Shown: piece by piece, positions 11,971 through 61,996 of the stretch
Layout: every line of letters starts with the position of its first letter
Numbering within the stretch: position 1 is the stretch's first letter
Assembly (NCBI GenBank): GCA_003833135.1
Contig: QZLH01000059.1
Span: 75,257-139,256 of the forward strand
DNA: 64,000 bases
Direction of reading: 5' to 3'
Source: Oehlia diaphana
Lineage: Eukaryota; Glomeromycota; Glomeromycetes; Glomerales; Glomeraceae
Program-made: the position numbers and the translations under genes
Notes under the pieces: generated by a model
What the model was told of the DNA's origin: nothing
What the model saw: the letters and a program-made list of their open reading frames with translations, nothing else
The model's database searches: none

Positions 11971-12945
11971 CTTAAAAAATAATACAGAATAAAATTTTTT
12001 TTTACGGAGTAATGTGTCCGTTCATTTATTTGATTTGCGTCCTACAGAAGATCTACTTTGTTGAACGAATATATTTATAGCTACACTGTACTACGAATGA
12101 ATCGATAACATGTGCTCGATGAGAAAAATAACATGTGATTATAATCAACAATTTATTTGCCAATATGAGTTGTTCATATTATAAGCAGTCTATTGGAACA
12201 AAAAAAAATTCGAATTTGAGTTAGTAACTTGATGGATAGATTTGATTTTAGATAGTTTAATAATTTATTCATTTTTAGTTTAAAGTATAATTTGAAGATG
12301 AGATTACTAGTCCAGTATAATAACTTAAAGTATCGGATTAGTGCGACCTTACCAGTTATCAGATATTTGTTCGATTTCTCTCTGTTATAATTTTCTTTTT
12401 CCAATTTATTACAAATTATAATAAATTAACGCAAAGTGTTACTCATAGGATCTTATTTAATCCACGTTCTTTTTTTTAAAAAAAATGTTTGTATAATGCT
12501 ATTTTTTTTATTATAAGAAAATGTAATAAGTAATGCTAATGTTAATATTATCAAATATAAATACAAATATCAAATAAATATCAAATATTACTAAACACAG
12601 TCAGTCCCAATAAACTGGATCTTCGATAAAACCGAACCTTTAATATTCCAGAACAGATTAATATTACACAATATATAAATTAATTTCGATATATCGGATT
12701 TCCTGATATATCAGATTCTTCTAATTGAACGGATGAGTCCGGTTTATCAAGCCTGCTTGTGTATATAGATTCTAAATTAACGAAAAGAAATTATGAATTG
12801 AATTATGATTATCTTTAATTATAGAGAGACTTAAAATAAAATGAGTTTGTGTGTTGTGCTTTTAAATTGTAATCTAATGCATTATGCGTAATATATACAG
12901 TGGTGAAATTTCTGTGCGTGAATCAAAAATGACATAATGATATGT
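11971..12945. other. Intergenic, AT-rich
   Basis: I see no gene. A weak inverted similarity links the CTTCGATAAAACCG stretch near 12620 to the GGTTTATCAAG stretch near 12740 and could be a decayed MITE. Confidence 0.4.
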
Positions 12946-17870: not shown

Positions 17871-20800
17871 TTAATTTTTATCTACTCCCATAGTAGCTTT
17901 ATTATAATTATTAATATAATCTTGTAATCTAGGGGATAATACAGATTTTGGTGGTTCTGTAATCTTTGCTGTTAATTTACCTTCTTCTTCCGTGTTTTCA
18001 TTATTTCTTTTCTTTTTATTATTATTATTATTGATTAAAAGTCTTTCTTCTAAATTGTTCTTTTCATTTAATGCTACAATTGGTTTAGCGATTGTAGTAT
18101 TTATATAAGTTGTCGGAGCCGCTAATACTTTTTTAGGATCAATTGGAGAACTAGATGGTGATAATTTTGTTTCATTATTTTTATTATCAATAGGGATAGG
18201 GGATTTTGTTTCATTATTCTTATTATCAATAGGAATAGGGGATTTTGTTTCATTATTCTTATTATCAATAGGAATAGAGGAATTTGTTTCATTATTCTTA
18301 TTATCAATAGGAATAGAGGAATTTGTTTCATTATTCTTATTGTCAATAGGAATAGAGGAATTTGTTTCATTATTCTTATTGTCAATAGGGATTGAGGAAT
18401 TTATTTCATTATTCTTATTGTCAATAGGGATTGAGGAATTTGTTTCATTATTTTTATTGTCAATAGGGATTGAGGAATTTGTTTCATTATTCTTATTGTC
18501 AATAGGGATAGGGGATGTAACTGATGTAGCCTTGGTAGATTTTGAAATAGATTTTTGTGGTACAGGCGGTGGAATAGCAAGTTTATATTTAGTAGGGGAA
18601 GTTACCTTATTAGTAGTTGGCAATTGAATATTTTCATTACTATTTTCAATTTCATTTGAATTCCCGGATGCTTTTAACTCATTCTTAATCATTTCTATTT
18701 CAGGATTATTTTTTAGAAGAGAATTAAGTTCAACTGGTTTACGTTTAACGTTAAATTCTTTTTGTTTTGGTGGGCTAGTACTTAAAACTACCGGTGAAGC
18801 TTTCTTTGGAGATACTACCGGAGCAGGAGGTGGTGTTGATGACATTCCCAAAGGTTTTTGTCCTAAAGCAGCGAAAATCGATGCCTTATTTATTGGTATA
18901 CCAGCAAGATATGAACGTTTCGGTGGACTTGATTGTTCAGGTGATGTAACTTTCAAAGGTGATTTCTGTTCTGTTGTTACGGGCGTAACTTTGTTTATTT
19001 GTTCAACATTTAATGGTTTGGTGATATCATTACGAGGTGGTGAATTTGAAATATAATTAGATGTATTTTCCTGTTCCTCTATTATTGGATTATTAGGTGT
19101 TATTGGCTTCTGTAGAACAGAACTTGGAGGTGCAGGAAGGCTACGACGTGGTCTTGCTTTAGGAACTTGGTTTTCATCTTGCGTAGTAATAACTGATGCA
19201 TTATCCGTAATGTTATTTGTAGTTGCTGTTGTTGTTGTAGTTGTTGTTGGTGGTGGTGGAAGTTGCCTACGTGGTCTATTCTTTGGATTTTCATTTGATG
19301 TATTCTCTTCGATATTTTGTAATAAAGTTTTCTCATTTGAATCAAAAGAATTTTGAGATTGATTATTAGATCCACCATTTCCGTATCCAATCCAAGAAGT
19401 ACCCCATTTAAATAATGATGATAAATTTCCCCCACCATTAACAGCATCATTAGTATTACTGGATTTAGGTTTTTCTTGTTCAAGCCCAGGAACTTGAACA
19501 ATGTCTGGTTTTTTCTCATTATTAACCTCAGGTTCTTTAGGTTTTGGTGTTGGTGTTGGTAAAGGACGACCTTTAGGTACATTTTCGTAAGCAACATACG
19601 TATCATTGCTTGTTGTAGATACTATATCTTCAAACATATTATCCTGAATTCTAGGCATTTGTGCTTTTTGTTTCATTAATAATGTTAACCCCGAAGGACC
19701 AGGAGGTGAAGATGCTATATTGTCAGTTCGTTTAAATGATTCTGATGAGAAATCAAAATTTTGTGTTGGATCTTGACTATTCGCAATTTCCTGTGTTTGA
19801 TTAATATGTGCCCAAGGAGATTTTCCACTAGGTGCAACAACAAGCTCACTACCTTCTGATAAAGCTGGACTTGATCCTTCAGATTGATTATCGTTCTGTT
19901 GTTTATCAAGCCATGTTTGAATATTTTTTGATGGTTCGGATGGTACATTGATAAATTCATATTCCGAAGTAGGCGGTGATACTTGTGATACTTGTGATCC
20001 ATTATGTTGTCCAATACCTCCCAATCCTGAAGTTGCAGCAAAAGGACGTTTTTGTATAGCACCTTGTTCTTGTGTTGAAAAAGAAAGATATCTCACACGT
20101 TCGATAGCTGGAATATATGCATAAGGTGATGCAGGAGCTAATGGGGGTGATTTTGCGATAAGTTTCGATGGATTCGGTGGTGACATTTGTTTTGGCCTTC
20201 CAAGCAAAGATGATGCAAAAGATCCAAGTTTCTTTGGACTTGCAGAACCAAACATATATGATCCAGCAGAACCTTTTGCAGGAGAATAATGTCCACGACT
20301 ATCATCTTCTTCATTTGACCAAGGAAGTACTCTACCACCCTTTTTTGGAATATTTACTGGTGTTGAAACTACACCTAAAACATCATCATCATCTTGTCTC
20401 GTATCTTCAACAAAGAATTCTGCATTTTCATCCATCATATTATAATGATTTGGAAATACGTTCAAATCTGCATCAGCTATAGGAGCCGGTTGTAAAGACG
20501 CGGAATGTGCAATATAAACGGGAAGATGAACAGTAAGATCCTTCCTATAAAATATGATAAATAAATTTAATAATTACGTTTTTTTTTTTATAATTACATG
20601 TGAATTTTTGTATAATTACATACGTGAATGGTCCCAAATATAATGATACGACAATAAAACACACAACTTCAAATAGTGCAGTATTTCTTATCGTTCTTGC
20701 ATTTCTCTGAGTAAAAATAATAAAGAAAATCAAACATTATTAATTATAATTTTTTTTAAACGACTTCAAAAAAAAAAAAAAAAAAATATTTAATTCACTT

Positions 20801-28158: not shown

Positions 28159-28588
28159 GTGAGTTATTTCCTATGCCCTATAAAAACAAAATGTATTAAA
28201 TTTGTAGCTCATGTGTAATAAATGTCTAAAAAAGCATCAGACATAAATCGGATAAAATAGTGCTTTTCTAGACTTTTTACATGTGAATACAAATATAAAA
28301 TGAATTTAACACATAGGAATGCTAAGAAAGGAAAGAATCTCTCTGTTATATTGTTCTACACAAGGTGCTCGGTCATTAGAATTATCATCAATACTTTGCT
28401 TTTTACTAACTGTATGCCATAATGGAAAGCCACATATATTTACTTGAGGAACCTTTCATATTTGATTCAATATTGATCACATGACTCTGCAAATTGATTA
28501 GCATTAGTCATCTGAAGTGCAAGATATATCAAGATATATGAATATATTATCATAAAATTTTTTTTACAACACATTTTCTTTTAAAAAA

Positions 28589-29938
28589 ATGATTTCAACA
28601 CTTCCTACTGATTGTCTTAACCAAATTTTCGAGTGCTTAGAGGAAGACAAAGTTACTTTACATTCTTGCTTACTGGTAAATCGTCTTTGGTGCAGAATTT
28701 CCGTTGAAATATTGTGGAGAAATATTTGGGAATTTGAAAAAATAAGGACTTTAATCGCTTGTCTTCCTAACGAATTAAAAGACTTTCTACTTAATAATGG
28801 AGTCACTTCAATTTCAATCTCAAAACCTCCATTGTTTAATTATGCATCATTTTGCAAAGTTATTTCAATTCGATATCTATTATTTGAAGATAACGAAATT
28901 TTATCTAAAAATCAAAAAAACTATTTGATAACCAAAGAAATATTGAAAATGTTTATGAGACAAATTTCTTCTTTAAAAAAAATGGATTTTAGTTTTATGG
29001 AATATTATGATGATTATGCTTGCTATGATGATGATTTTTATAAAAATTATAATTTTTTAAATTTTATTAATTTTCCTGGAGCAAAAGATTGTTTAAAAAA
29101 TCTTTCAGAATTGAAATGTTACTCATACATGAATTCTGAATTTTTTTTTCAACTATCTAAAATATGTCGCAATATAAATTATTTAGTTATAATATTTGAA
29201 AAAATTGCTTCAGTTGGAATAAAAGATTTGATTCTTTCTCAAAATAATTTAAAATCCATATCATTTAGCGGTTGTAATAGTTGCAATGAGAGTAATTTTG
29301 ATGATGATATACTTAATTATTTCACATTGTCAAATACTTTAACAAAATTATTTTTAAGTGGAACATCACTACCATCCATTTTTACTAAAATTATGTTTTC
29401 AAACTTCCGAATTTTAATATTAGATTTTTATCCAGTTAATCATGTTGATATATTGACTAAATTTTTAGTAAATAATGGAAAGAATTTAGAAGAACTTGAA
29501 CTTGTACTAAGTAATTGTGTGAATTCAGTTATTAATAATTCAATAAATTTAGCTATAGCTAAATATTGTCCAAGCTTAAAATCATTACATACAGAATTTA
29601 AAAGAATAGAAGAATTAATTATGATTTTTGATAATTGTCAACAATTAGAAAGTATTAGAATTTCTAGTGATAAGTCATTAGGAGGAAAAAAACTGTTAGA
29701 AATTGTTGCTAAATATTCTCCTAAAAATTTTCATGAATTAAATTTATTTCATGCAAAATTACATTCAAAAGATTTGGAATCATTTTTTATTAGTTGGAAA
29801 GATCGTGTATCACAAAGACCATTTTCATTTATCTATGATGGTGATGGTCCTGTAAATAATAACAAAACCGGGAAATTAATTAAAAAATACAAAGCCTTAG
29901 ATGTTATTAATAAATTTGAGAAAAGAAATAGACGTTGA
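28589..29938 (+). CDS. F-box protein (1 of 5 intact in cluster)
   Basis: A single-exon frame of 449 codons. Residues 4-45 form an F-box: LPTDCLNQIFECLEEDKVTL followed by SCLLVNRLWCRISVEILWRN. The rest is Leu- and Ile-rich with degenerate leucine-rich-repeat spacing (CLKNLSELKCYS, NNLKSISFSGC, KNLEELELVLSNC, CPSLKSLHTEF), ending with a segment conserved across this cluster (KLLEIVAKYSPKNFHEL ... LESFFISWKDRV). F-box proteins couple substrates to SCF ubiquitin ligases through Skp1; the LRR-like part would bind substrate. Paralogues lie at 31786, 40127, 45457 and 47253, with a pseudogene at 36105. Asn- and Lys-rich composition follows local AT content. Confidence 0.88.
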   Translation: MISTLPTDCLNQIFECLEEDKVTLHSCLLVNRLWCRISVEILWRNIWEFEKIRTLIACLPNELKDFLLNNGVTSISISKPPLFNYASFCKVISIRYLLFEDNEILSKNQKNYLITKEILKMFMRQISSLKKMDFSFMEYYDDYACYDDDFYKNYNFLNFINFPGAKDCLKNLSELKCYSYMNSEFFFQLSKICRNINYLVIIFEKIASVGIKDLILSQNNLKSISFSGCNSCNESNFDDDILNYFTLSNTLTKLFLSGTSLPSIFTKIMFSNFRILILDFYPVNHVDILTKFLVNNGKNLEELELVLSNCVNSVINNSINLAIAKYCPSLKSLHTEFKRIEELIMIFDNCQQLESIRISSDKSLGGKKLLEIVAKYSPKNFHELNLFHAKLHSKDLESFFISWKDRVSQRPFSFIYDGDGPVNNNKTGKLIKKYKALDVINKFEKRNRR

Positions 29939-31785: not shown

Positions 31786-33228
31786 TTATTCAAATTTTTT
31801 AATGATACCCAAATTTTTATATTTTCTAATTATTTTCTTATTTTTGCTATTTTTTATAAATTTACTATCATTAACAATAAAAGAAAGTGATTTTTGAGGT
31901 ATACGGGTTTTCCAATTAATAAAAAACGATTCCAAATCATCTTTTCTTAATTTTACATAATTACATAATGTCAGTTCATGAAAATTCTTGGGTGAATATT
32001 TAGCAACTATTTCCAATAATTTCTTTCCTTCAAAATATGGTTTATCACATAAAGTTTTAAAGCTTTCTAATTGTTGACAACTACTAAAGATAACCGCTAA
32101 TGATTCTATTTCATCAAATTTGAATTGAGTATATAGTGATCTCAGATTCGGACAAAATTTTGCTATAGCTAAATTTAACGAATTATTACTATTACATCCA
32201 TATACATTAAATTCCCTCAAATTCCTTCCATTATTTTCTAAAAATTTAATCAACATTTCAAATTCCGAATATCCATAATATAATTTTAAAATTTCTAAGT
32301 ATGGAAAAATAACGTATTGTAATTCTTTAAAATCTTCAAATCCTGATGATAAATCAAGTTCTTGTAAATTTGTAAATTTGGTAAAAAATGATGATGTTGA
32401 TATTCCTTGTAAAAATAATTTCGTCAGTGTTTTTGCATGTTTTGTTAATGAAGGTACGATCTTTGCGCAATCTATATCCTCTTTATCATCATAATCAATA
32501 CACCGCTTAACTGATAAAGATTTTAAACCATTTTGTGAAAAAATCAAATCATTTAATCCATCCAAATTTGTAATACTGAATTCTATAGTTAATGATTGAA
32601 TATTATGGCATATTTTAGATAATTGATAAAAAAATTCAGAATTGATGTTCGAGCTACATCTCATTTCTGATAGATTTTTTAAACAATCTCTTGCACCGGA
32701 AAAATTAATAAAATTCGGAATTTTGCTACCATAAATATCGGAGTAATAAACCAGTTTTTTTAAAGAAGGAATTTCTTTCATAAACATTTTTAACATTTCT
32801 TGTGCTATCAAATAGTTTCTTTCTCTTAGTAAAATAAAAGATTCATGATTTGTGGTAATTTTTTTAAATTCATCATCGATTATCATTAGATCAAGAATTG
32901 AAAGAACTTTGCAAAATGATGGATAATTAAATAATGGAAATTTCGAAGTTTGGGTTGGAATAAAAACACCTTTGTTAAATAAAAGTTCTTTTGATTCATT
33001 AGGAAGGCAAGCGATTAAAGTATTGAAAATTTTTGATAACGCGTCCAGTTGATATAATACAGTATCCCAAATGTTTCTCCATAATATTTCAACAGAGACT
33101 CTACACCAAAGACGACTAACTAATAAACATGAATGCAAAGCGACTTTATTATCATCTAAACATTCAAAAATTTTCTTAAGACAATCGATGGGAAGTACGG
33201 GAAGTTGGGAGGGCATTTTACTATTCAT
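31786..33228 (-). CDS. F-box protein (2 of 5)
   Basis: A single-exon frame of 480 codons. The F-box (residues ~9-50) reads LPVLPIDCLKKIFECLDDNK, then SCLLVSRLWCRVSVEILWRN. LRR-like spacing follows (CLKNLSEMRCSS, NGLKSLSVKRC, TNLQELDLSSGF, LEILKLYYGYSE, PNLRSLYTQF), and the family C-terminal signature KLLEIVAKYSPKNFHELTLC ends in IRKYKNLGIIKKFE. It lies opposite in strand to the copy at 28589, with 1.8 kb of element-rich sequence between. Presumed SCF substrate receptor. Confidence 0.88.
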   Translation of the reverse strand: MNSKMPSQLPVLPIDCLKKIFECLDDNKVALHSCLLVSRLWCRVSVEILWRNIWDTVLYQLDALSKIFNTLIACLPNESKELLFNKGVFIPTQTSKFPLFNYPSFCKVLSILDLMIIDDEFKKITTNHESFILLRERNYLIAQEMLKMFMKEIPSLKKLVYYSDIYGSKIPNFINFSGARDCLKNLSEMRCSSNINSEFFYQLSKICHNIQSLTIEFSITNLDGLNDLIFSQNGLKSLSVKRCIDYDDKEDIDCAKIVPSLTKHAKTLTKLFLQGISTSSFFTKFTNLQELDLSSGFEDFKELQYVIFPYLEILKLYYGYSEFEMLIKFLENNGRNLREFNVYGCNSNNSLNLAIAKFCPNLRSLYTQFKFDEIESLAVIFSSCQQLESFKTLCDKPYFEGKKLLEIVAKYSPKNFHELTLCNYVKLRKDDLESFFINWKTRIPQKSLSFIVNDSKFIKNSKNKKIIRKYKNLGIIKKFE

Positions 33229-33589
33229 TTTTAAAAGATTTTATAAAAAGGGCTAAAAAAAAATTAAAAAAAATGAGTCATAAAGAGAATAGTCCTTTTT
33301 ATATTATTTATATTACTTATAATATTATAACAGTGTTGAAACAGAAGTCATGTGAATGTAAATTCATAATTAATAGATTAGTCAGATTATAGTTTAGTAT
33401 TTATTAAAATCTACATATTAGTATGACATATAATCTTGATGATCTATACTTTAATATAATATTAGATTAATTGATTTTTTTCTGTAGATAAGAAGATAGT
33501 AATTAATGTCATCAAAATATCAAATCATTACAAAAATCATGATCTTTGATAGCAGCTGTAAAGTAAATTTGAATTTTCCGACAATTTCT

Positions 33590-37336: not shown

Positions 37337-40126
37337 TTTATCTAACAAAAAATAATATGAAATTCAACGTATTGTCAAAAAATAAAATCGTTGTTATCTT
37401 CTTATAGTAAGTTGAATTTAATCGTGTTACATACACCTGTTATATAACAGATAAAGTAGATTGTGAAATGTGAAAATTTACGCCAATAATTTAAATAAAT
37501 AATTTATACATTTAATTAGTGGTTGAAGGTTAATTCTTTAATCAATCTCATTGATCCAGGAAAGGTATTGTTTGTTATAAAAATCTTCGAGTTAAAGATA
37601 ATTATTTTAAGCTATAGTACATACCTATTAATAATATTCAACTTCACTTGAAAATTAAACGTCTTAATATTAGTACAGTACATGCAATTTCAATTAATAA
37701 AATGATTCCAAATCTTTTGAGCTTAATTTTACATAATTTTAATTTTAATCTACGGAAATTCCTTGATGAGAATTAATAAAGCTTCCAATACCGGTCCCTG
37801 TAGGCTAGAGCCTGCTTTAGCCCTAACTTTCCCAGTTATTGTCGAAAGTCGACAACAGGAGTTTACGTATATAATAAGAAACCCTAAACAAATGATTTAT
37901 ATTGTGTGATATATTTTCGGGAGAAATTTTTTTTTGTCTGGTTTTGCTGTAGTGAAAATCAGGTGACATTAAAATATTTGTCGCCCCTGTTATCTCGTTT
38001 CTCTGTTTCGATTTTCCACCAAAGTGACATCGCCCTCGTAGCGATTTAGTGTTCAGTTTTCTAATTACTTTCGGTTTTAGTGTTAAAAATCTTTGTATTT
38101 TGTACTGCTACTTTGTGTAATAAATAAAAATAAAAAAGCTCTTTTAAAGTTGGCTAGCCCTAGTCCCGAAGAATTTAAACCATATTTCGCTACCAATACT
38201 ATTAAGATACAGCCATTCAGTTCCATTTACGATCATTTATTCATTACTAACCCGGCTAATTTTGTTTCATTCGCCTTATCTATTTTGCCCATTTATAAAT
38301 GTGTATCAGATAAAATACTAAAAAAATATTGTGTAAATATGTGTAATATGTGTAATATGTGTAATAAATATATGGTAATATATGTGATAATGTGTAATAG
38401 TGGCGCTTATGTATTTCTAATTTGGATAGCTTATTTTAACATTTTATTACGTTCTTTCATATTATATAAAAAGGAAAATTTTATAGTTTTATTCTCTTAC
38501 AATTATAGGAGTGCAATCTACTGTTGTTAAATGTGGTGGTTCATCTTGTGAAGCCAACGCGTACTGAAGCCCGGGCTATCCTAGATGTAAAGTTTAAGAG
38601 GACCAAACTACCCTCTTTGTTTCTTTGATTAGAAAAGAGTGACCAAATTGTCGTATGTCAGATGCAGGATTGAAGATACAGTACCTGAAAGGTTCAAAAG
38701 TGAAATCGGAGACGTACTCAGAGAAGTAAACGCTGAAAATAAGAAACAGTAAATTGCTGGAGACGCACAAATAATTATAAAAAGTATGCCTGATTTTGTC
38801 TTGTGGGTTGAGTTGATTCTATTTAGATAGTTGTTTTGAAATATTAACTTCGAGTTCATTATCATAACGATATTAAAGTAGAATCCTTGAAACTATTTTT
38901 GATATTGAAAAATAAAGGTAGAACCCTATTACAATCAGGACATAGTATTAGCCGCATGGTAAAAATCATTAGTGAAGATTTTTTGTGTACAAAATAAATG
39001 ATATAAAAAAATGTTAATAAATTCTCCAAATAAATTTTACGCTGTAATTCTTAGTAATTATGGAAAACACTTTATGTATCGCGAGAAATTAAACTTTTCG
39101 CGGTGGCAATCTTAAATAGTAGGAATTTTTAATGATTTTTTTTATGGCTCCTATTTGATCAGGCGTAAGGCTATTTGTCTGATATATTAAATTTGTTGAT
39201 AATAAAATAATTAAAATAATTAACTCATATAATCGAAATGTTAATTACTTAATTTCAGCTAAGAAAAATCGACTTTAGTCTTTGTAAAAGTTTAAATTTC
39301 ATTCCGGCCTAAATTAACTGCTAACACATCGTTTCACGGGAACCAATAGTAAAATTTATTTTATTTCTTTCGCTCAAGATGTTTATCATAAATCATATAA
39401 AGTTAACGTCTTTACAGTATTTGTTTGTATTTATTTGAGTAACTACTCATTAGTGTTGGAATTAAGCCGGAATGGAATAAAAACAGGTTAGTCGAGAGAA
39501 AGGTGTTTTAATTCGAAATATAAATTCGATGAATAACACGTCACAACTACCTATATTTGGAGTATTATATAATAGTTATTTCACGGGGAACTATGGAATC
39601 ATTGATTTGCGCGGCTGCGTCGTGAAAATCATTGTTTGGTATAACCCAGTTATTTCACGGATCATGGCGGATCAATGGCTTCCTATTAATTAATAATGAT
39701 ATAATGATGGACTTTTTATTCTAATATTCTAATATTAATTATTCTAATATTAATTTATCCATCTTTTTAAATAATCATCTGTGAGATTATTAGGAACTGT
39801 GACCTTATTTATATAATCACATTATTAGCATCATGTTTCCCTGTCCTTAAGAAGCAATGTACAATTTTTTATTATAGTACAATTATTATGTTTGGTGAGT
39901 CATCGCGTCGTATCACTTTATTTTCACGTGTTAATATATAGCTCATTATTCATTTTGTTCTACAAATATAGCTAAATCAACATGTGACTAATTAAAGTTA
40001 ATTAAATTAACTATTCGCATCATTTTCATCACCTTTTTTTTTCTCTCTCATTTTTAAAAAAAATTAAACTTCTCAAATTTCTCAAGCTTCTCAAACTTCT
40101 AAATTTCTCAAGTTTCTCAAAACACA
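37337..40126. other. Intergenic with coding-like debris
   Basis: No supported gene. About 37790-38840 is richer in GC than its flanks. An open stretch at 38140-38320 reads LASPSPEEFKPYFATNTIKI and SIYDHLFITNPANFVSFALS; another at 38535-38625 reads VKPTRTEARAILDVKFKRTK. A third near 38640-38750 reads LSYVRCRIEDTVPERFKSEI. They are in different frames, broken by stops, and look like a decayed transposon or gene. Three TTTCACGG stretches (about 39334, 39590, 39650) recur without clear meaning. Confidence 0.35.
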
Positions 40127-41755
40127 ATGTCTTCTCAACTTACTGTTGATTGTCTTAACAGAATTTTTGAGTGTTTAGAAGAAGATAAAGTTAATTTACA
40201 TTCTTGTTTACTAGTCAATCGTTTTTGGTGTAGAACTTCAGTTGAAATTTTATGGAAGAACATTTGGATTTTTAAATTTATTGACTCCTCACCGCACGAT
40301 TTGGATGTATCATTAAAAGTATTTGAGACTCTGGTCGCTTTTCTTCCTGACGAGTCAATAGACTTTTTATTCGAAAATGGAATTTCTATCCCAACTACAA
40401 ATCAAAGATCTCCATTATTTAATTATGTATCATTTATCAAAGTTCTTTCAATTCCACACCTCATAATCGGTAATGTCTCATATAACAAAATTCTTACTGG
40501 AAATTCAAAAACAAACTGCTTGATATCACAAGAAATTTTAAGAATGTTCATGAAACATGCTTCTTTAAAAAAATTGGCCTATTGTTTAATAGAAGATAGT
40601 CGTGATAATAATGTTTCTGATTATTTTAAGCTTATTTCAAATTTTATTAGTTTTCCTGGAGCAAATGATTGTTTAAATAATCTTTCAGATTTGAGATGCG
40701 GCTCAGACATTAATTCTGAATTTTTTCAACAACTGTCTCAAATATGTCACAACATACAATCACTTAGAGTACATTTTTGTTGTATTTCAAAGGAGTTAAA
40801 TGAATTGTTTTTATCACAAAAAAATTTGATATCCGTATCATTTATAAAATATGGAGATTATTATTATGGTGATTATTTTCATAATATTGGTGATGATAAA
40901 GTTGTTGATGATGGTGACGACGACGACGATGATGATGATGATGACTACAACGACGACGACGACGACGACGACGATGAAGTTTATGTGTATTCGTATAGTA
41001 TTAGACTTAATAACAATGATGATGATGATGATGACGACGACGACGACGACGACGATGATGATGATGATGATGATCATCATAAAATTCATCATAATGATCA
41101 AGATTGGCCAAAGATTGCATCTTTATTAGCAAAACATTCAAACACAATAAAAAATTTATTACTTGAATATAGACATGCTGACTTTAAAGAAATACAATAT
41201 ATCACTTTTCCACACTTACGAATTTTAAAATTAGTTATTTGTCCAGAAGTTAAAATGTTGATTAAATTTTTAGAAAATAATGGAAGGAATTTGGAAGAAT
41301 TATATGTGAATAGGAATGATAATTCATTACATTTAGCCATAACTGAATTCTGTCCAAACTTAAAATCATTACATACTATATTTCCAAGAAATGAAATAGA
41401 AATGTTAAAATTAATTTTTGAGAGTTGCCAACAATTAGAAAGTTTTCTAGGTATATGTGGTCATTGTTTTCTGGGAGGAAAAAAACTATTAGAAGCTGTT
41501 GTTAAATATGCACCCGAAGGTTTTCGTGAATTAAAATTTCATAGTCATGTGACTTTAGGTTCAAATGACTTGCGATCATTTTTTATTGGTTGGAAAGCCC
41601 GTAAACCACAAAATCCAATTTCATTAATAATTAGTGAAGAAAGTTTTAAGTTAGATATCAAAACTGGTGAAATGATAGCTAGATACAAAAAGTTGGGTAT
41701 TATAAAAAATTTCGAAACTGATGACCAATTTTTTCTAAATATGTATAATTTTTAA
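40127..41755 (+). CDS. F-box protein with Asp-rich insertion (3 of 5)
   Basis: A single-exon frame of 542 codons. The F-box (residues ~3-44) reads SQLTVDCLNRIFECLEEDK, then SCLLVNRFWCRTSVEILWKN. LRR-like segments (CLNNLSDLRCGSD, HLRILKLVICPE, RNLEELYVNRND, CPNLKSLHTIF) and the C-terminal signature KLLEAVVKYAPEGFRELKF follow. Unlike its paralogues it has an insertion of about 70 residues (~255-323) made mostly of aspartate runs with a YVYSYSIRLNNN island between, ending in His. This lengthens the protein by the amount it exceeds its relatives. The acidic loop would interrupt an LRR-like repeat. Presumed SCF substrate receptor. Confidence 0.88.
   Translation: MSSQLTVDCLNRIFECLEEDKVNLHSCLLVNRFWCRTSVEILWKNIWIFKFIDSSPHDLDVSLKVFETLVAFLPDESIDFLFENGISIPTTNQRSPLFNYVSFIKVLSIPHLIIGNVSYNKILTGNSKTNCLISQEILRMFMKHASLKKLAYCLIEDSRDNNVSDYFKLISNFISFPGANDCLNNLSDLRCGSDINSEFFQQLSQICHNIQSLRVHFCCISKELNELFLSQKNLISVSFIKYGDYYYGDYFHNIGDDKVVDDGDDDDDDDDDDYNDDDDDDDDEVYVYSYSIRLNNNDDDDDDDDDDDDDDDDDDDHHKIHHNDQDWPKIASLLAKHSNTIKNLLLEYRHADFKEIQYITFPHLRILKLVICPEVKMLIKFLENNGRNLEELYVNRNDNSLHLAITEFCPNLKSLHTIFPRNEIEMLKLIFESCQQLESFLGICGHCFLGGKKLLEAVVKYAPEGFRELKFHSHVTLGSNDLRSFFIGWKARKPQNPISLIISEESFKLDIKTGEMIARYKKLGIIKNFETDDQFFLNMYNF
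40890..41085. repeat. (GAY)n trinucleotide expansion in coding sequence
   Basis: Two long runs of GAT and GAC codons (about 40906-40973 and 41018-41073), separated by a non-repetitive stretch, all in frame within the F-box gene. GAT and GAC blocks alternate, so DNA slippage rather than codon-level selection alone is likely. Confidence 0.95.
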
Positions 41756-45456: not shown

Positions 45457-46953
45457 TTACACCTTTAAAATTTTAATTACACCATTCTTTTCATATTCAT
45501 TAATAATTTCCTTCATTTCATTATTTTTTTTAGAACCAACATTTTTAAAATTTAAAGTAAGTAATTTTTGTGGGTTACGCTTTTTCCAACTAATAAAAAA
45601 GGATTTTAAATCTTCAACGTCTAATTCCGCATAATAATTATGAAATTTTAATTCGTGAAAATTCTTCGGTGAATTTTCAGCTACAATTTTTAAAAGTTCT
45701 TTTCCGCTTAAATTTGAACCACGACGAAATATTTCAATACTTTCTAATTTTTTGCATTTCTTAAAAATATTTCTTAATAATAATCCTGATAAATTTTCAC
45801 CAAATATAGTATGTAATGATTTCAATTTAGGACAATGATCGTTAACAGCACGATTTATTGATGAATTTTTACATTTACATCTACTTTGAAATTCCTCTAA
45901 ATTCTCTCCATTATTCTCTAAGAATTTTACTACTATCGGTTCAAATTTTGTTGGAAGATTAACATTTAATTTTCTTAAATGTGGAAAAGTAAAATGTTGT
46001 AAATCTTTAAAATATTCGAAATCTTCGTCTTCATTAATGAAACTTAACGATATATTAAGTTCTTGTAAATTATTGAAAACTTTTATAAAAGATAATGGCC
46101 AATGATTTTCTTCTCCTTTAATGCTTAACTTGATTAAAGTATCAGAATGTTTCATCAACGAAGGTATGATATCTGCCCAATGATATGATTCATAATAAGT
46201 TGATAAGGATTTTAAATTATTTTGTGAAGAAATTAAATCTTTTAATCCATCGGAAACTGTATCAGCATATTTGTTAAACCTAATATTTAATGATTGAATA
46301 TTATGACATATTTTTGATAGCTGATTAAAAACTTCAGAATTAATATTTGAAGTACAAGTAAATTCTGAAAGATTTTTTAAACAATATCTCGCTCCAGAAG
46401 AATGAATGAAAGTTATTCTATCTGATATTTTCAAATTTTTTATTTTTGAGCTATAATTTACATCACAAGTATATGATAATTTGTTCAACAAAGAAACGCT
46501 CATAAACATTTTTAATATTTCTTGTGTTAATAAATTAATATTTTTTTTTGTATTAATTGACTGTTGATTGTTAGTAAGAAAAAGCTTAACAATAGAATGA
46601 ATTTTATAAATTGATAGAACTTTGCAATATGATACGTAGTTGAATAATGGAGGTTTCGAAGTTGGAGCCGAGATAATTTCCTTCTTACACAAATGGTCGT
46701 CAGGAGCATATAAAGATTTCAAATTTGGTACTAAAATAATTCCATTGTTATATAAGAAATTTTTAGATTCATCAGGTAAACAAATAATCAAGGTATTAAG
46801 AACTTTTGTCGATGCATTGGGCTCCTTCCATAAAATTCTAACAGAAACTTGACACCAAAAGCGATTAACTAGTAGGCATGAATATAAAGTGGCCTTATCT
46901 TTTTCTAGGCATCCAAAGATCTCGTTAAGACAATCAGCATCAAGTTGAGACAT
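45457..46953 (-). CDS. F-box protein (4 of 5), tandem duplicate
   Basis: A single-exon frame of 498 codons. The F-box reads MSQLDADCLNEIFGCLEKDK then SCLLVNRFWCQVSVRILWK. LRR-like spacing follows (CLKNLSEFTCTSN, NNLQELNISLSF, HLRKLNVNLPT), then CPKLKSLHTIFGENLSGLLL and the signature ELLKIVAENSPKNFHELKF, ending INEYEKNGVIKILKV. It is close to the next gene (47253-48704) along its whole length, in the same orientation 300 bp apart, so the two are a recent tandem duplication. A 14-residue insert (NLKSLYAPDDHLCK region, ~78-91) is the main difference. Presumed SCF substrate receptor. Confidence 0.88.
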   Translation of the reverse strand: MSQLDADCLNEIFGCLEKDKATLYSCLLVNRFWCQVSVRILWKEPNASTKVLNTLIICLPDESKNFLYNNGIILVPNLKSLYAPDDHLCKKEIISAPTSKPPLFNYVSYCKVLSIYKIHSIVKLFLTNNQQSINTKKNINLLTQEILKMFMSVSLLNKLSYTCDVNYSSKIKNLKISDRITFIHSSGARYCLKNLSEFTCTSNINSEVFNQLSKICHNIQSLNIRFNKYADTVSDGLKDLISSQNNLKSLSTYYESYHWADIIPSLMKHSDTLIKLSIKGEENHWPLSFIKVFNNLQELNISLSFINEDEDFEYFKDLQHFTFPHLRKLNVNLPTKFEPIVVKFLENNGENLEEFQSRCKCKNSSINRAVNDHCPKLKSLHTIFGENLSGLLLRNIFKKCKKLESIEIFRRGSNLSGKELLKIVAENSPKNFHELKFHNYYAELDVEDLKSFFISWKKRNPQKLLTLNFKNVGSKKNNEMKEIINEYEKNGVIKILKV

Positions 46954-47252
46954 TTTTTATTTCTATTTTTTTTAAAAAAAAAATATATATATATTTTGCG
47001 TGAAATTTCAGTTTTTCTAAAGCCAAAATCGTAAAGTCATTTATAACCATATTTATTACTTTATTAAGTCGTATTACAAAGTACAAATATCTTTGTTGCG
47101 TTACTAAAATTAGAAATTCTCACGCCACAATGAAGAAAACGAGATTTTTGTATGATACTTAATTTAATTTTATTATACACACAAAGCATATTTGATATTT
47201 CAACATAATTATAATATATATACAACTATACAACTTAAAAACATGCGTAAAT

Positions 47253-48704
47253 TTACATCTTTAAAATTTTAATTACACCCTTCCTTTCATATTCATTAAT
47301 AATTGCCTCCTTTTCATCATTTTTTCTAGAACTAACATTTTTAATATTTTTAATAATTAAATTAAGTAATTTTTGTGGGTTACGTTTTTTCCAACTAATA
47401 AAAAAGGATTTCAAATCTTCAGCGTCTAATTCCTCATAATAATTTTGTAGGTTTAATTCATGAAAATTCTTCGGTGAATTTTCAGCTACAATTTTTAAAA
47501 GTTCTTTTCCGCTTAAATTCGAACCACGACGAAATGGTTCAATAATTTCTAATTTTTTGCACTTCTTAAGAATATTTCTTAATAATAATCCTGAAAATAT
47601 TTCACCAAATGTAGTATGTAATGATTTCAATTTCGGACAATAATCACTTATAGCACGATTTATTGATTTATAATTACTTTGAAATTCCACTAAATTCTCT
47701 CCATTGTTCTCCAAAATTTTTACTACTATCGGCTCCACTTTTTTTGGAAGATTAATATTTAATTTTATTAAGTGTGGAAAAGTAAAATATTGTAAATCCT
47801 CAAAATGTCCGAAATCTGAATACTCATCGTCTTCTTTACTAACGTAATCTAACGATATTTCAAGTTCTTGTAAATTTTTGAAATCTTTTATAAAGGATAA
47901 TGGCCAATGATTGTCTTTTCCTTTGATGATTAACTTGATTAAAGTTTTAGAATGTTTTGACAACGAATCTATGATAAGGTACCAATGACTTAATTCATAA
48001 TAAGTCAATGATAAGGATTTTAAATTTTTTTGTGAAGAAATTAAATTTTTTAACCCATCTGAAACTTTATCAGAATATTTGTTAAACTCAATATTTAATG
48101 ATTGAATATTATGACATATTTTCGACAACTGATTAAAAACTTCGGAATTAACATTTGAAATACAGGCAAATTCTGAAAGATTTCTTAAACAATATTTCGT
48201 TTCAGGGAAATTAACAAAATTTATATTGTTTAGAATTTTTACATCATCATTAGTATATGTTAATTTTTTTATCGAAGAAACACCCATAAACATTTTGAAT
48301 ATTTCTTGTGTTAGTAAAGTAATATTTTCTTTTGTATTAATTGATTGTTTGTTGTTAAAGAAATGTTTAACAGCAGAATAGATTTCAGAAATTGAAAGAA
48401 CTTTACAATATGATGCATAATTGAATAGTGGATTTTTTGAAGTTGAAGCCGATATAACTTCTTTCTCGCAAGGAGTTGGTCTTAAAATAATTCCATCTTT
48501 ATATAATAAGTCTTTAGATTCATCAGGTAAGCAAGTAATTAGATTATTAAGAACTTTTACTGATACATTGGGGGTTTCCCATAAAATTCTAACAGAAACT
48601 TTACACCAGAAACGATTAACGAGTAGGCATGAATGTAAAACGGCCTTATCTTCCTCAAAATATCTGAAGATCTCGTCAAGGCAATCAACGTTAAGATGAG
48701 TCAT
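47253..48704 (-). CDS. F-box protein (5 of 5), tandem duplicate
   Basis: A single-exon frame of 483 codons, the sister of the gene at 45457. The F-box reads MTHLNVDCLDEIFRYFEEDK, then SCLLVNRFWCKVSVRILWE. Shared blocks include NSEVFNQLSKICHNIQSLNI, HWPLSFI, CPKLKSLHTTFGEIFSGLLL, GSNLSGKELLKIVAENSPKN and the ending INEYERKGVIKILKM. The F-box retains its hydrophobic core residues. Substitutions concentrate in the LRR-like middle, where substrate would bind. Presumed SCF substrate receptor. Confidence 0.88.
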   Translation of the reverse strand: MTHLNVDCLDEIFRYFEEDKAVLHSCLLVNRFWCKVSVRILWETPNVSVKVLNNLITCLPDESKDLLYKDGIILRPTPCEKEVISASTSKNPLFNYASYCKVLSISEIYSAVKHFFNNKQSINTKENITLLTQEIFKMFMGVSSIKKLTYTNDDVKILNNINFVNFPETKYCLRNLSEFACISNVNSEVFNQLSKICHNIQSLNIEFNKYSDKVSDGLKNLISSQKNLKSLSLTYYELSHWYLIIDSLSKHSKTLIKLIIKGKDNHWPLSFIKDFKNLQELEISLDYVSKEDDEYSDFGHFEDLQYFTFPHLIKLNINLPKKVEPIVVKILENNGENLVEFQSNYKSINRAISDYCPKLKSLHTTFGEIFSGLLLRNILKKCKKLEIIEPFRRGSNLSGKELLKIVAENSPKNFHELNLQNYYEELDAEDLKSFFISWKKRNPQKLLNLIIKNIKNVSSRKNDEKEAIINEYERKGVIKILKM

Positions 48705-50313
48705 TTTTGGTTATTTTTTATTTTCAAAAAAAAAACTTCAACGTTGAAATTTATCCTATCTCGTTTTTTTTTATTACTTTTAAAGTAAATCAAGTGATTT
48801 ATTTAGATAAACATATTTGAATGTAAACAAAGGGGTTTGTACTTTTTTTTATCACTCTATTTTTGGAGTAGTTTATCGTGTGACATGATGTCATGTGAAT
48901 TTGCGCTCATTGAGAATGAATGAACATTCTTAAAATTTTTTGACACCATTCATTATAAATGAAATGATCGCCGGACCAATTGATTATTGGATACCCGGAT
49001 AAATTAATTACATTTACATTGACAATAATAAACCCTGCGAAATCATTGCGAATACCTTTCATTTATACGTTTTAAATTTCTTTTCCATTTATAGATTTTG
49101 CGCAACTTAATCTATTTAAGAATTATAATTTTTTATCTGCTCATTTATTAGTGTGACGAGATTCTGTGTTACGGGTAAATAGATAACATGATATGTATTA
49201 TAAGAAATTTGGCGCAATTGATAATCAATTGTTGGGAACAAAGACTTTAAAGATTATCATTTTATATTAAAAATTATAGAATCTATTGTAAACATTCTAA
49301 AAATTTTGGAAAACTTCATGTGAAAACATGTACAGTATCTAGCCGAAACTATTGGTTAGAATATGAGTTACAGGCACTTTTTTTTTTAGAAATTAGGGAA
49401 TTCTTTTGGACAGTATACTTGCAGATAATGTCTTTATAAAAGAATGACACTACCGATCCGAAATTAGCATCCGGAATAGCATAATACTCCGTAGATATCC
49501 CGATATATTATAGATTTCCTAGCCTAGTAGATTTGAAATAGAATTCTCTTTTTTTTTTAAAAAAAAAAAAAGTTATATATGTACAAAATACACGAAATAG
49601 TGACTTCACATAAAGTTTCGACGAAGAGTTTAATTGTTTCATCTGATAGTAAATTACAATTTCATCTCGTCCATTAAATATATTAATACCGGACCTCATC
49701 AACATTACTTTCTAAAAAAGAAAACGTAAATTTGTCTACAGTACATTGTTGAGTAATAAATAACAAAATTAACCTTTCTCGCATAAATACCACCGCTGAA
49801 TAATTCTTAGGTATATATTAGTTAATATAATATTCGAATTTCATTTGTCGAAAGATAAATTAACGAAATAATACACAATTGAAAATTCTCCAATGAAAAA
49901 ATTTTTTATCAAAAATAAATCGCACTGAAGTAAACTATGCTATACAGTATTCCTGAGCCCAGCTGAATTAATATTATTAGTTTTGACTTTTGATCTCTAT
50001 TTGTTGTAAGATGTACCGAATTTTGATTAATCTTTTCAGCTGTCGTGTCTCTCCTCCGGCTCTGCTATTTAGACAAGCTTTCTGTTGGAATGTTTAACCT
50101 GTCCATCTTACAATTACGATTGACTGTTTTAAGACCCAATGTACTGCGTGCAGAGATCACGACGAAACATATCTTGAAATGCAATATAATGTGATCCCTA
50201 ATTACGTATATTTTCATCACGACGGGTGAGTATCTCGGCAACGAGTTGCGTTTTTCCAAAATTGTTCGTAAGGTGAACATTTCACAGGTGTTCCTATTAA
50301 GGGACTTCATTAT

Positions 50314-53568: not shown

Positions 53569-56500
53569 TTATTTGGTTACAATCTCTTTCGGTATTTCCG
53601 GCATTGGTGGTTCATCTTCTTTAAGACTGTTTAATATACTTTCAGCTTTCAATGCAATTGACATACTTCTTCCTATACGTTTTTCCCTTTCACCACGTTT
53701 TCTTCGAGATCGAGTATCCAAATCTCTTCCATCTCTTAAAGTTTCCAATAGATTGTCCATAAGATGCTTTTCTTCTATAGAATCTTGTGAATCTTGTGAA
53801 GTTGGAGTGACTCTGACTGGATTGACATGAGCATTTTTTCTGCGATTCTCCAATTCCTATTTTTAAACAAGAAACCATTAATAAATATAAAATAGAAATC
53901 CAAAATGTAATTAATAACAAATACCTCTCTTCGTTTTTGAGCTAGTAATTCATGTTCACGCTGTTGCTTGTTATCATATCTTGCTTTCTGCAAAATAAAT
54001 GTTATTAGAAATTAATACAATAATATAAGTTCGAATAAATACAGCAATAAAAAACAAACCTCAAATGATGCAATGAAAGTTTTAAATATTCCGAAGAATT
54101 CATCAGGTTTAGTATTATTTGGATCTTCACCGAAGTATGCTACTACATCTTTGTAAGCTACTTCCATAGAAGTATATTTAACTTGAAGTTCCTCAAATTT
54201 CTGTTTTGATTTAATAACAAAGTCTTTCATTATAATTGGAAATCTATCATTTTTTTCTAATTCAACATCTATATAGTGCTTTTGAAGTTCAAAATCGAGG
54301 TCATTCAACTGTGTTCCCATCGTCCTATATTCACTAGTCATTTCTTGTTGTGAAACTAGAAAAATAAACAAACATTAATAATGATATTAAGAGAACCACT
54401 AATTATAAAAAAAAAATTTTAACCAACCTCTGCATGCGGATCCTGTGTCTTTTAAATCATTAGCAAACTCTACTATATGTGGTAACTTTTCTTCAACAGT
54501 ATTTGAAAGGAAATGAAGTAATGTAACTGAACTACTATTAGATGCCTTAGTGTCAACAAGCTAAGAATAATTGCAATAAATCATTAATATTTATTAGATT
54601 TATTAGATGTTTATTATAAAAATATTAATAAATATCTAATATATTACTTACCTTATTAATACTAGAAATTTTGAACCCAAAAGCGCCACCCTTATGACCA
54701 CTTCCATTCATATAATTACCAAATAATAAAATAAGCTAACAATTATTTGCCCATAGGTTAGATTATAATTAAACCAATTAGTGTAATAAACATTAATTAA
54801 TATAAATTCATACAACTTACGCTTAGAAGTTCTTTGAAATGTTTAGACTCCTTGAGTGCTATTGAAGCATTCAATATCGATACAACGGACTATAAATAAT
54901 TAATAAATAGATACAAATATAATTATAATCGTTTCAAATAACAAGTACAATTATTTGTTTCGTTAATATACTAACGTTATCAAGACTATTAAACCTCTCA
55001 TCAAAAGTAATATAGAAATACATGAATTTCAAACGTTGTTGATATCGATGAATCTTCATGATTTCAACAAAGAATTTATCCGGTCGAGCTAGATTTTCAA
55101 GCACCTCATCTGGTCCGTCTTTATAAACTGACAATTTACCACGCTATTAACAAAAATAATAATTAGAAAAACAAATATAAAAATATGAAATATTATTCCA
55201 TTTAGCCATTGCTAACCTCTTCTGCAGTTGGTATATGTTGCATTAATTGATTAAGAAGGTTCTCTGTGCAGAACAATTCATCCATTTCAATGATTTTTTG
55301 ATGAATTTCTTCAAATGTATAATGTTTATAACGACCAAGGATCAAATCTGTATACAAATAAGAATTAAGATATTTTAATCAACATATCGATAAAGTAGTG
55401 TTAATGAAAGAAATCACTTACTAATATTATGAGCCCGTTTAGAATCAAGAACGCTTATTTCATCTTTTTTTTCAGCTTTCTTTTCTATTTAAATTTAATT
55501 AATATTACTTAATATTTAGTCTGATATAAAGTTGAAATATTTATAATAAAACATACTCCTTAAAGCTACTTCTTTAGCTGCAAATAATTCTTCAATAGTT
55601 CTAAAAACTCCATCTTCCCCGCCGAGCAATTCAAGAATTTCATCATCACTTAAATTTGCCCATAACGTCTTGTTTATTGTTAATTGATTTATCTTATCCC
55701 ATTGTAACACTTTCATCTTCTTTTTGGCAACGAACGGAAGCATTTTACGGCCATTATCTAATTTTAATAAAGTAAATAAGTCACTATTGAACTAAAAATT
55801 TTAAAAAACACCTTTCACTTACTTGCTATAGGAGCAAAACGTCCTCCTGGTAGAGGGGGACCAGGTGGTGGTGGTGGACCTCCTTTAAATCCTGGTGGCG
55901 GCGGTGGTGGTGGTGGACCTCCCATGGCTCCTGGTGGCGGCGGTGGTGGTGGTGGACCTCCCATAGCTCCCGGTGGTGGTGGTGGTGGCGGTGGTGGGGG
56001 TGGACCTCCCATAGCTCCCGGTGGTGGTGGTGGTGGTGGTGGTGGTGGTGGTGGACCTCCCATAGCTCCCGGTGGTGGTGGTGGTGGTGGTGGTGGTGGC
56101 GGTCCACCAATATTTGAGGAAGGTGGAGGTGGTGGAGGAGGTGGAGGAGGAGGTGGGGGTGGTCCATCAGAGCTTGGTGGCGGAGGGGGTGGAGGAGGTG
56201 GGGGTGGTCCATCAGAACTTGGTGGCGGTGGTGGTAATTCAGATGATTGTGAAGAATGTTTTGGACTTGTCGGTGATAATGATGTTTCTTGTGGTAATTC
56301 TGAAGCATCTGGTGACTGTATTGGTGGAGATTGTGGCTTCTCCGTAGGTCTTTCTTCATAGTCTTCCGTCAAAACTTCACCATTATGTTCTTGAGTCGCT
56401 TCGTTGCTTTTATTTTGTAACCCTTTAAGCTCATCCAAAAAGGGTGGCATCTCTGGCATTTTTAATACCCCATCCGAAGAAGCGTTTGCATAATTATTAT

Positions 56501-59500
56501 TTGGATTTTGGAGGGGATTACCATAAATTGAATTATAATTAGGACCGGCGTTTGGTGTTGGGGCGTTTGGTGTTGGCTGTTGTGGAATTACAAAACCACC
56601 AGGAGAACCTTGACCATATCCTTCTTGATATGGATAAAATTGAGAACCAGTTGACTCTGAAGCATATCCAGTATTTGTAGTAGCATCATTTGTAACATTG
56701 GTAGGAGCGTTATATCGATATAGGTCGACATTAGGCATCTTTGTTATAAATAAAAAAAAATATTCATATCAAATAAATATAGGAATAAATTATATCAAAT
56801 GTAAATATAATACTAACTCTGAATCCATCAAATGGTGTCCAAACTTGACCTTCTAAAATAGCTTCTGTCTTAGCTATTTCCTGCATCCTTTCCAACTTTT
56901 TAATCATTTCCTGCCGATCTAAGGAATAATCAGAGTCACGCTGTTGCTCTTTCAACTGGGATTCAAATTCTCGTATTTGTACATTTTGCTCAGACAATTT
57001 TTCGAGATAACTTGCTTCAAGATCTGCAAGTTTAGTTTGTAGAGTTTGTATGGTATGACGTGAAATCCGCAAGAGATCTTCAAGTGAATCAATTTTGTTT
57101 TTCAATTCACCAACCTTTCCATCTAGCCGATGTGACAATAAAATTAATATATTAACCCCAACTTCCCATACAAATTAACAATTCAATTTATTCTTACCTG
57201 ATCCTAAGGAAAGCTCATTTTGCAACTCCTGTTTTTCACGTAATGCTTTTTCAGCTACTGCTTTAGCTTCCTTCGCCTCTTCAAGAGCAGTTGCAACTTT
57301 CTCCTGATCAGCCATTTTACTTAGAACTTGAGAAACGGTTATGCCAACTGAATTACTCCAATCTTGGTCAAGTCCTCGCCGATCAAGAACAACTTGAGTA
57401 ATTAAAGCATCAATAAGTTGAAAATAACGTGTTCTATAAAATAAATCTCCTTGTGAGAAATATAATTTATAATAATAATTTTAGACTAAATTTTATAATA
57501 TACCTTGTCTCGCCGTCGTCACGAATTAACAACATATGTTGCAACGATGACAAAAAGAAATCATATGCTCGCGTTCCTTCAACTGAACTAAGAATACATT
57601 TAAAAACATCATAAGGATCAGTAAGAGATGAGTTAAGGAATTAATTAATTATTTTGTTAATTTTTTTTTTAAAAAAAAATAGTATTATAGTAAATATAGA
57701 ATATTAATGTTATATTCAGCCAAGATAATAAAAGGATATGTCATATCCTTTAAAATTTGGTGATTATAGTAATCCAAAACCTCTTCATAATCTAATTCAC
57801 TCTCTCGTTCAAATTTACTGATTTGACGATTAATTAAATCATAATTTAAAGTTTTCATTTTCTAATCAAATAAATAATTATTAGATAATTCAAATTATAA
57901 ATTAATGCGCTAAGAGTGTAATAAATCCTCACTTCAATAATACGCGACAAACCACATGCGTGCAGCTGATTCCTTAAGTGCACTCTAATTTCTACGTCAT
58001 CACATACTCCAATAATCGAATTTATCAAGATCATGTTGGCAAGCTAAGATATAACACAATATAAAATGAATAAAGTAAAATAATCATGTTTCGCTGGAAA
58101 TTAATCATACAGAAAATGTTGTAAAAATTTACCGCATATTCCATTAATGAACCATCCATTCCTATACCGCCTTTTTTGTATTCATCACTTGCATTAACAA
58201 AACTACCTAAACGACCACGACCATCAATTGTATTTTCCAACACTCTCATCCATGCATCAAATCTACCATGCTCATTTTGAAATTGCATAAGCTGGTCAAA
58301 ACCTCCCAATACCAAATTGTGACCAGTAGGAATTTCACAATAACAGAAAAAAGAAAGAACTTCGGCCACAAGTTTCCGTGTATTTAATTGAGGAGAAACA
58401 AGTGAGAATGTAATGCTATATATGCATGTTGGATGTGACAGAGCTTCTTGTGCACCCCACTATGTATGCGAAAAAGGTTTAATTAATAATCCTTTTGAAT
58501 TATCCAACACAACTATAATATTCTTGTAACATACTCTGTTGTTTAATAATGACTTTAAACATTTGATAACTTCGTACTCCATTTGCAAATCCAATTCTTT
58601 CCTAGTTAAGAAAAAAAAATTTTAATAATACAGTATAAATGAATTATTATTACTAAAAAAAGATTTAGAAAAATAATACAACTTGACAGGTTTCCGTGTA
58701 ATAATGTTTAGACGATTTGCAAGAACCTCCAGACCTTTAGCATCAATGAATGATCTCACCCACCTAAAGAACAAAATAAAATGATTACTTATAAATTCAT
58801 ATGCCACATTAATCAAACTTCTACACACTTTAACGTTAAAGTTCTTAGGGAAACACTAAGAGAATTCATATCTTTGATAGTTATTGTACCATCCAAAATT
58901 TTTTTGAGAAAATATTCAGGTGAATTTTTATCATGTGAAGATGCTATTACATTTGTCGAGCCTGATTTTGATGATTTCTATTTAAGGAAAAATTCATTTA
59001 ATAATAATAATATAATAATATGTAATAATTAAAATTAAATAATAAAAACCTCTTCTTGTATCATTTCATTTTTTACTAGAATCCATTTTTTTTCTGTCGG
59101 AAAAGCTAACATATCTTTTCTCTGGGATACCTTCAAATCTCTTTTATTCTACTCAAAAAAAAAAGTTATAATTAAAGAATTTTTTGATAATCTAATTGTA
59201 TTAATAAATTCGAATTCGTACCATTAAATCCAAAAACAAATTTTCAATTTCTGCATCAGAAGGCTTAGCAGGTTCCTTGTTTACACCAAAAACACTGCCT
59301 ACCCAATTATGTATATCACTAGAGAAAGCACCTGAAGATCTTACGGAGGAATTTTCAGAACTATATCTTGAAGCGCTATCTTGAAAACTATAGGACGATT
59401 GAGATTGTGGACTATGTTCTTGCGATTGGCTTCTTGAATGAGTCTGATGTCCCGAATTATCTGGAAAATATTGCTGATTGTTAGATCCTGGTGACTGTGG

Positions 59501-59725
59501 ACGTTGACCATACTGTTGGGGGTAATGTGAATCTTGGTAATATGAATGAGAAAAACTTTGTTGCTGATGTTGTTGGCCATAATGAGCATTACCATGATAA
59601 CCTGAATTATACGTAGTAGGAGTTTGTCCAGGCGAATGAACAGGCGGCCTGATTTGAGAATATGGAACCGAATTATTTACATCCAAAGGAATTTGTTTTT
59701 GCTGTTTTTTCTTTTTTCCAAACAT
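53569..59725 (-). CDS. Diaphanous-type formin, 22 exons
   Basis: Exons (5'-3'): 59222-59725, 59050-59148, 58829-58977, 58683-58763, 58535-58601, 58133-58459, 57933-58043, 57740-57861, 57504-57620, 57198-57433, 56818-57122, 55823-56738, 55557-55757, 55422-55484, 55217-55347, 54976-55143, 54821-54889, 54652-54735, 54428-54560, 54060-54355, 53925-53987, 53569-53856; 1509 codons in frame. Order: Gln/Ser-rich N-terminus; GTPase-binding/FH3 region (~150-530; KWVRSFIDAKGLEVLANRL, EYEVIKCLKSLLNN, FDAWMRVLENTIDGRG); coiled coil (~590-700); FH1 poly-Pro (~870-1000); FH2 (~1012-1410; KMKVLQWDKIN, ISVLDSKRAHNI, GNYMNGSGHKGGAFGFK); DAD (~1446; MDNLLETLRDG plus RSRRKR). FH1 feeds profilin-actin to the FH2 dimer; DAD binds FH3 for autoinhibition released by Rho GTPase. 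All introns are GT-AG except 57621-57739. It is divergent from polyubiquitin. Confidence 0.93.
55850..56232. repeat. FH1 proline-codon minisatellite
   Basis: On the minus strand, runs of CCA/CCT/CCG/CCC codons give 8-13 prolines each, separated by GAMGG, SSDG and SSNIGG linkers. The GAMGG spacer occurs four times, showing duplication of a unit of about 45-55 bp. Run lengths are likely to vary between strains. Confidence 0.9.
57621..57739 (-). other. AT-AC intron, U12-type, in formin gene
   Basis: On the coding strand the intron starts ATATCCTTTT and ends CTCTTAC, with TTCCTTAAC (57640-57632) placing the branch adenosine 12 nt before the 3' end. The 5' site matches the U12 consensus ATATCCTT exactly, and the branch element matches TTCCTTAAC exactly. 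The 119-nt intron contains no GT and no AG on the coding strand, so a major-class intron cannot be drawn here. Joining the flanking exons in phase gives ILKDM|TDPYDVFK, then CILSSVEGTRAYDF, normal formin FH3 sequence. Without removal the frame stops. Confidence 0.88.

Positions 59726-61996
<2,271 letters not shown>

Follow-up and report, generated by a model that had tools for sequence, protein, structure and literature searches.

How a 119-nt insert with neither a GT nor an AG on its coding strand could be removed from a formin transcript is the question raised by the minus strand of the 64-kb window, the whole stretch of DNA analysed here. Positions 57739..57621 (minus) were re-read, and the count of 0 GT and 0 AG upheld an earlier sequence-only reading, as did the sequence, coordinates, strand, motifs and branch distance that it had given. 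The insert begins and ends ATATCCTTTT...TTCCTTAACTCATCTCTTAC, so that the terminal AT and AC are both present. Its 5′ splice site ATATCCTTTT (57730..57739, minus) has 0 mismatches to the U12 consensus [AG]TATCCTT at the intron start, and its branch point sequence TTCCTTAAC (57632..57640, minus) has 0 mismatches to TTCCTTRAY. The 3′ splice site AC was read from the sequence at 57621..57622 (minus); from the branch adenosine at 57633 to the last base of the intron is 12 nt, and U12-type introns have short branch-to-acceptor distances of about 8–20 nt. The exact motifs and the AC end, the restored reading frame, four minor snRNAs with pairing potential, minor-spliceosome protein genes and the gene models of relatives together argue that the insert (57621..57739, minus, 119 nt, phase 2) is almost certainly a minor-class (U12-dependent) spliceosomal intron, AT-AC subtype, predicted as intron 8 of a diaphanous-related formin gene.

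The formin gene was modelled by hand from a start codon at 59725 to a stop codon finishing at 53569 (53569..59725, minus), which gave 22 coding exons and a protein of 1509 aa. Drf_GBD (PF06371, residues 154–340, 170.9 bits), Drf_FH3 (PF06367, residues 365–552, 172.1 bits) and FH2 (PF02181, residues 1022–1392, 312.5 bits) all scored far above the Pfam cut-offs, and the predicted protein is accordingly a diaphanous-related formin having GBD, FH3 and FH2 domains. The model contains 21 introns, 20 GT-AG and one AT-AC; the other introns had been described earlier as all starting with GT, which was correct, but their number had been put at 21. Exon 8 (57740..57861, minus), upstream of the AT-AC intron, ends with ...ILKDM plus AC, and exon 9 (57504..57620, minus), downstream of it, starts with T plus DPYDVF..., both within the FH3 region. 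Joining these flanks keeps the frame in phase 2 as ...ILKDM-T-DPYDVF... and rebuilds the FH3 domain, in agreement with the in-phase formin that had been anticipated, and an alignment of the rebuilt protein with mouse mDia1 extends over the junction.

To estimate how often the motifs would arise by chance, sequences were simulated from the dinucleotide composition of the gene's remaining 20 introns. Under this model TATCCTT at positions 2–8 is expected 5.5e-5 times per intron and TTCCTTAAC in the branch window 2.5e-5 times per intron; on the assumption that they occur independently, the joint chance is about 1.4e-9 per intron. The other 20 introns themselves showed donor mismatches of 2 to 5 of 7 and branch mismatches of 3 to 5 of 9, and none of the 20 came within one mismatch of either motif. 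When the 64 kb were scanned on both strands with up to one mismatch tolerated per motif, 38 donor/branch pairs were returned, among which the formin intron alone had zero mismatches in both. Genome-wide, the strict long-gap pattern TATCCTTTN{65,95}TTCCTTAAC had two matches, the formin intron and one on contig C422; its reversed control had five, so there is no enrichment at gap lengths of 65–95.

The sequence-only reading had predicted that the host would encode U11, U12, U4atac and U6atac. Rfam profiles were searched against the host genome (108.8 Mb in 1672 contigs) and 14 control genomes, and each of the four gave a single full-length match above its cut-off in the host assembly: U11 at 71.9 bits (cut-off 39), U12 at 69.1 bits (cut-off 53), U6atac at 79.8 bits (cut-off 33) and U4atac, the weakest of the four, at 55.7 bits (cut-off 53; 2.7 bits above). 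None of the 14 control genomes matched any of these four profiles, and the 64-kb window itself held no Rfam match at the gathering cut-offs. Sm-like sites were seen in host U11 (AUUUUUAGG), U12 (AAUAUUUGG) and U4atac (AUUUUUGGA). In computed duplexes, the 5′ end of host U11 could form 10 bp with the donor ATATCCTTTT (−9.2 kcal/mol) and host U6atac could form 7 bp with the donor (−6.9 kcal/mol). Host U12 could form 9 bp around a bulged branch adenosine (−9.1 kcal/mol), whereby the branch site plus the two following bases can pair with U12 GAGUAAGGA. The 5′ parts of host U4atac and U6atac also have extensive pairing potential in a computed duplex (−43.1). As a side observation, the host U11 5′ end (UAAAAGGGUGUG; contig C701:41173-41313) could pair with the whole donor, its first nucleotide included; the core pairing of human U11 with the donor is shorter than this potential duplex.

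Removal of the intron by the minor spliceosome is predicted from these cis motifs and machinery genes, and the steps assigned to 57621..57739 are those of the general minor-spliceosome scheme. As parts of the U11/U12 di-snRNP, U11 would bind the donor ATATCCTTTT and U12 would bind the branch site TTCCTTAAC. U4atac/U6atac.U5 would then join, and U6atac would take the place of U11 on the donor. The donor would next be attacked by the branch adenosine (57633), and the exons would be ligated as ...AC|T GAT... to give a continuous FH3 domain.

A check for protein factors had also been proposed, and two of the six minor-spliceosome protein genes sought were found. SNRNP25 (U11/U12-25K) was clear: PF18036 matched over two exons, and the translated match finds U11/U12-25K in the PDB at E 9.4e-16. 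The other was a CHHC finger over the cut-off of the Pfam profile zf-U11-48K. This profile is short and was also exceeded in one control genome, that of Sulfolobus acidocaldarius, and the best PDB match of the finger was GTSF1 (E 7.7e-6), ahead of U11-48K (E 0.022); for these two reasons the predicted SNRNP48 gene is considered no more than likely. Profiles for PDCD7, CENATAC and SCNM1 had no match in the host genome; they had none in the control genomes either, and absence is thus unproven. The DIM1 profile found one gene in the host genome (contig C48:20536-21239), clearly TXNL4A from its strong match to human TXNL4A, and a human TXNL4B query against the host genome, run without control genomes, matched solely this TXNL4A locus, at 23 bits.

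The last two proteins bear directly on AT-AC introns. In human cells, AT-AN minor introns are reported to be retained when CENATAC is depleted, and TXNL4B is reported as the strongest CENATAC interactor (PMC8280824). AT-AC splicing that dispenses with both CENATAC and its main partner TXNL4B is nonetheless unlikely in this fungus, since the exon-by-exon search, the draft assembly and sequence divergence could each conceal these genes, and their non-detection is weak evidence of absence. If it were true, AT-AC donors would be recognized by RNA pairing alone, through the potential 10-bp U11 duplex, or by some unknown factor, and the non-detection makes this fungus a possible test case for AT-AC donor recognition.

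Formin models of relatives were collected by two protein searches (the best 120 of 300 matches, and 41 of 41), which gave 18 models from 15 Glomeromycotina species; the host species' own formin model is outside this set. Sixteen of the 18, covering all 15 species, extend to the AT-AC junction, and two do not. Among the matches listed, none of these 16 deposited models was right at this junction (junction 8), in line with the misannotation by gene callers that had been predicted, whereas junction 7 was right in 13 of 16 models (12 species) and junctions 7 and 9 were both right in eight of 16 (seven species). Two scores were set by hand. The script had counted junction 8 as right in one of 15 models, that of Funneliformis caledonium, which was rescored as wrong since the alignment shows read-through (TYPFIIF...); the Diversispora model, which stops five residues past TYP, had been scored out of range and was counted as in range, hence 0/16. 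Junction 7 is also wrong in the models of Acaulospora colombiana, Racocetra fulgida and Gigaspora rosea, which therefore say little about junction 8. Other junctions of these draft models are also imperfect, and sequence conservation is weak around junctions 1, 2, 11 and 12 (models right/in range: junction 1, 1/15; 2, 0/15; 3, 13/15; 4, 12/15; 5, 11/16; 6, 13/16; 7, 13/16; 9, 9/15; 10, 5/13; 11, 0/10; 12, 1/6; 13, 3/6; 14, 6/6; 15, 5/6; 16, 5/6; 17, 4/6; 18, 4/6; 19, 6/6; 20, 6/6; 21, 4/6).

Several of the faulty models carry peptides that fit a translated U12-type intron, the nucleotide motifs being deduced from the protein records. DMTYP[LF], as expected from a translated donor AC|ATATCC.TT, occurs in proteins of six species (Acaulospora morrowiae, Ambispora gerdemannii, Dentiscutata erythropus, Funneliformis geosporum, F. 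caledonium and Diversispora epigaea), and SLT, which corresponds to translated TCCTTAAC as TCC TTA ACN, occurs in both Ambispora models (two species). The A. gerdemannii protein reads through a whole insert, TYPLLEVMPFLVTLDSLTFFS-T, that fits an in-frame AT-AC intron from end to end. Apparent translated U12 elements were thus found in seven of 15 species, suggesting that the AT-AC formin intron is probably old and has been misannotated repeatedly in Glomeromycotina. The models of three of the 15 relatives have a longer damaged stretch at the site. An apparently intact junction in Racocetra persica, picked up by a loose text pattern, was rejected because the match lay at residue 18, away from the site. 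All 13 of the chosen Mucoromycotina, Mortierellomycotina and Basidiobolus proteins run cleanly through the site. The junction region was ungapped in 76 of 143 non-Glomeromycotina homologues, gapped in 65 and out of range in two; the one gapped homologue viewed in alignment, Aspergillus P0063, has an insertion upstream of the site, a few residues away, and the clean contrast is accordingly with the 13 chosen proteins and not with all fungi.

Other explanations of the locus were weighed against this evidence. U2-type AT-AC introns share their terminal dinucleotides with the formin intron and, to our knowledge, have neither a TATCCTT donor nor a TTCCTTAAC branch site. Removal by the major (U2) spliceosome is conceivable in that non-U12 AT-AC introns are on record (column ‘Other AT-AC introns’ in Table 2 of PMC2846911), but the insert matches both U12 motifs exactly and has the potential for 10-bp and 9-bp pairing with host U11 and U12, which makes such removal very improbable here. 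A GT-AG intron with shifted junctions, taking part of the neighbouring exons, was judged slightly less probable still. There are 11 in-frame GT/GC...AG combinations around the insert, with junctions outside or across it, and the models of Scutellospora, Racocetra persica, Cetraspora, Funneliformis mosseae and one of F. geosporum do lack exon sequence at the site, as would be expected from such splicing. Judged from the offsets, however, each of the 11 would cost at least 33 codons of exons 8 and 9, a region kept in 13 of 13 aligned Mucoromycotina, Mortierellomycotina and Basidiobolus proteins as well as in mouse mDia1, and the deposited models conflict among themselves.

Least probable of all, and to an extreme degree, is that the sequence is retained in the mRNA or is an assembly artefact. 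The deposited A. gerdemannii protein running through its entire insert would agree with retention, but in the host the frame that enters the insert (ORF 57685..57861, minus) meets a stop codon within it. An assembly error would leave the recurrence of motif-fitting peptides in other genera unexplained. Splicing of 57621..57739 as a U12-type AT-AC intron is the reading retained.

A minor intron in this host is much less surprising than the sequence-only reading had claimed, because a minor splicing system in Rhizophagus irregularis has already been published: the survey of Larue and Roy (2023, PMC10639083) reports for that species 205 minor introns (0.272%) and the full set of four minor snRNAs, along with orthologues of ZMAT5, RNPC3, SNRNP35 and SNRNP25. 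One protein of the window (in ORF 11050..12021, minus) shares 99% identity, along its whole length of 306 aa, with an R. irregularis protein. As reported in PMC10639083, the R. irregularis system resembles that described here in its U12 consensus, its four snRNAs and several U11/U12 proteins, and the species are the same or very close. The formin intron is one further case, mechanistically ordinary for a host with a minor spliceosome. A term search of the main text of PMC10639083 returned no mention of formin or diaphanous, and no literature on this particular intron was found among the matches listed. The survey was built on genome annotations, and states that some annotation pipelines omit minor introns (PMC10639083). 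The formin intron may be absent from the published 205, as the survey is annotation-based and the junction is wrong in the models of relatives.

In the early-diverging fungi Rhizopus oryzae and Phycomyces blakesleeanus, U12 introns of both AT-AC and GT-AG types have been predicted from EST-to-genome matches; these fungi belong to another lineage, with few AT-AC introns reported (one in Rhizopus and 8–9 in Phycomyces; PMC2846911). For the diaphanous-related formin family, a passage in PMC6865273 that does not state the species gives 100% of genes as having minor introns, which makes the intron described here a candidate minor intron of great age, as old as the opisthokonts. What is newly added is the misannotation of the formin junction across the subphylum, together with the CENATAC/TXNL4B question. 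Gene callers restricted to GT-AG have no means of placing an AT-AC intron. Every one of the 15 relatives examined has a faulty formin model at the AT-AC junction, so AT-AC introns may be undercounted in surveys that rely on annotation, and arbuscular mycorrhizal fungi may have further gene models broken at AT-AC sites.

Elsewhere in the window, five long ORFs (28556..29938, plus; 31786..33240, minus; 40103..41755, plus; 45457..46956, minus; and 47253..48710, minus) have in common an N terminus, DCL..IF.C.E.DK...SCLLVNR.WC, labelled F-box-like by eye, and look like a local paralogue cluster on both strands. An ORF of 900 aa (17871..20573, minus) carries tandem repeats of ~13 residues (NSSIPIDNKNNET) in its C-terminal third. 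A polyubiquitin gene (60692..61996, plus) consists of head-to-tail ubiquitin repeats with a terminal RLRGGQ.
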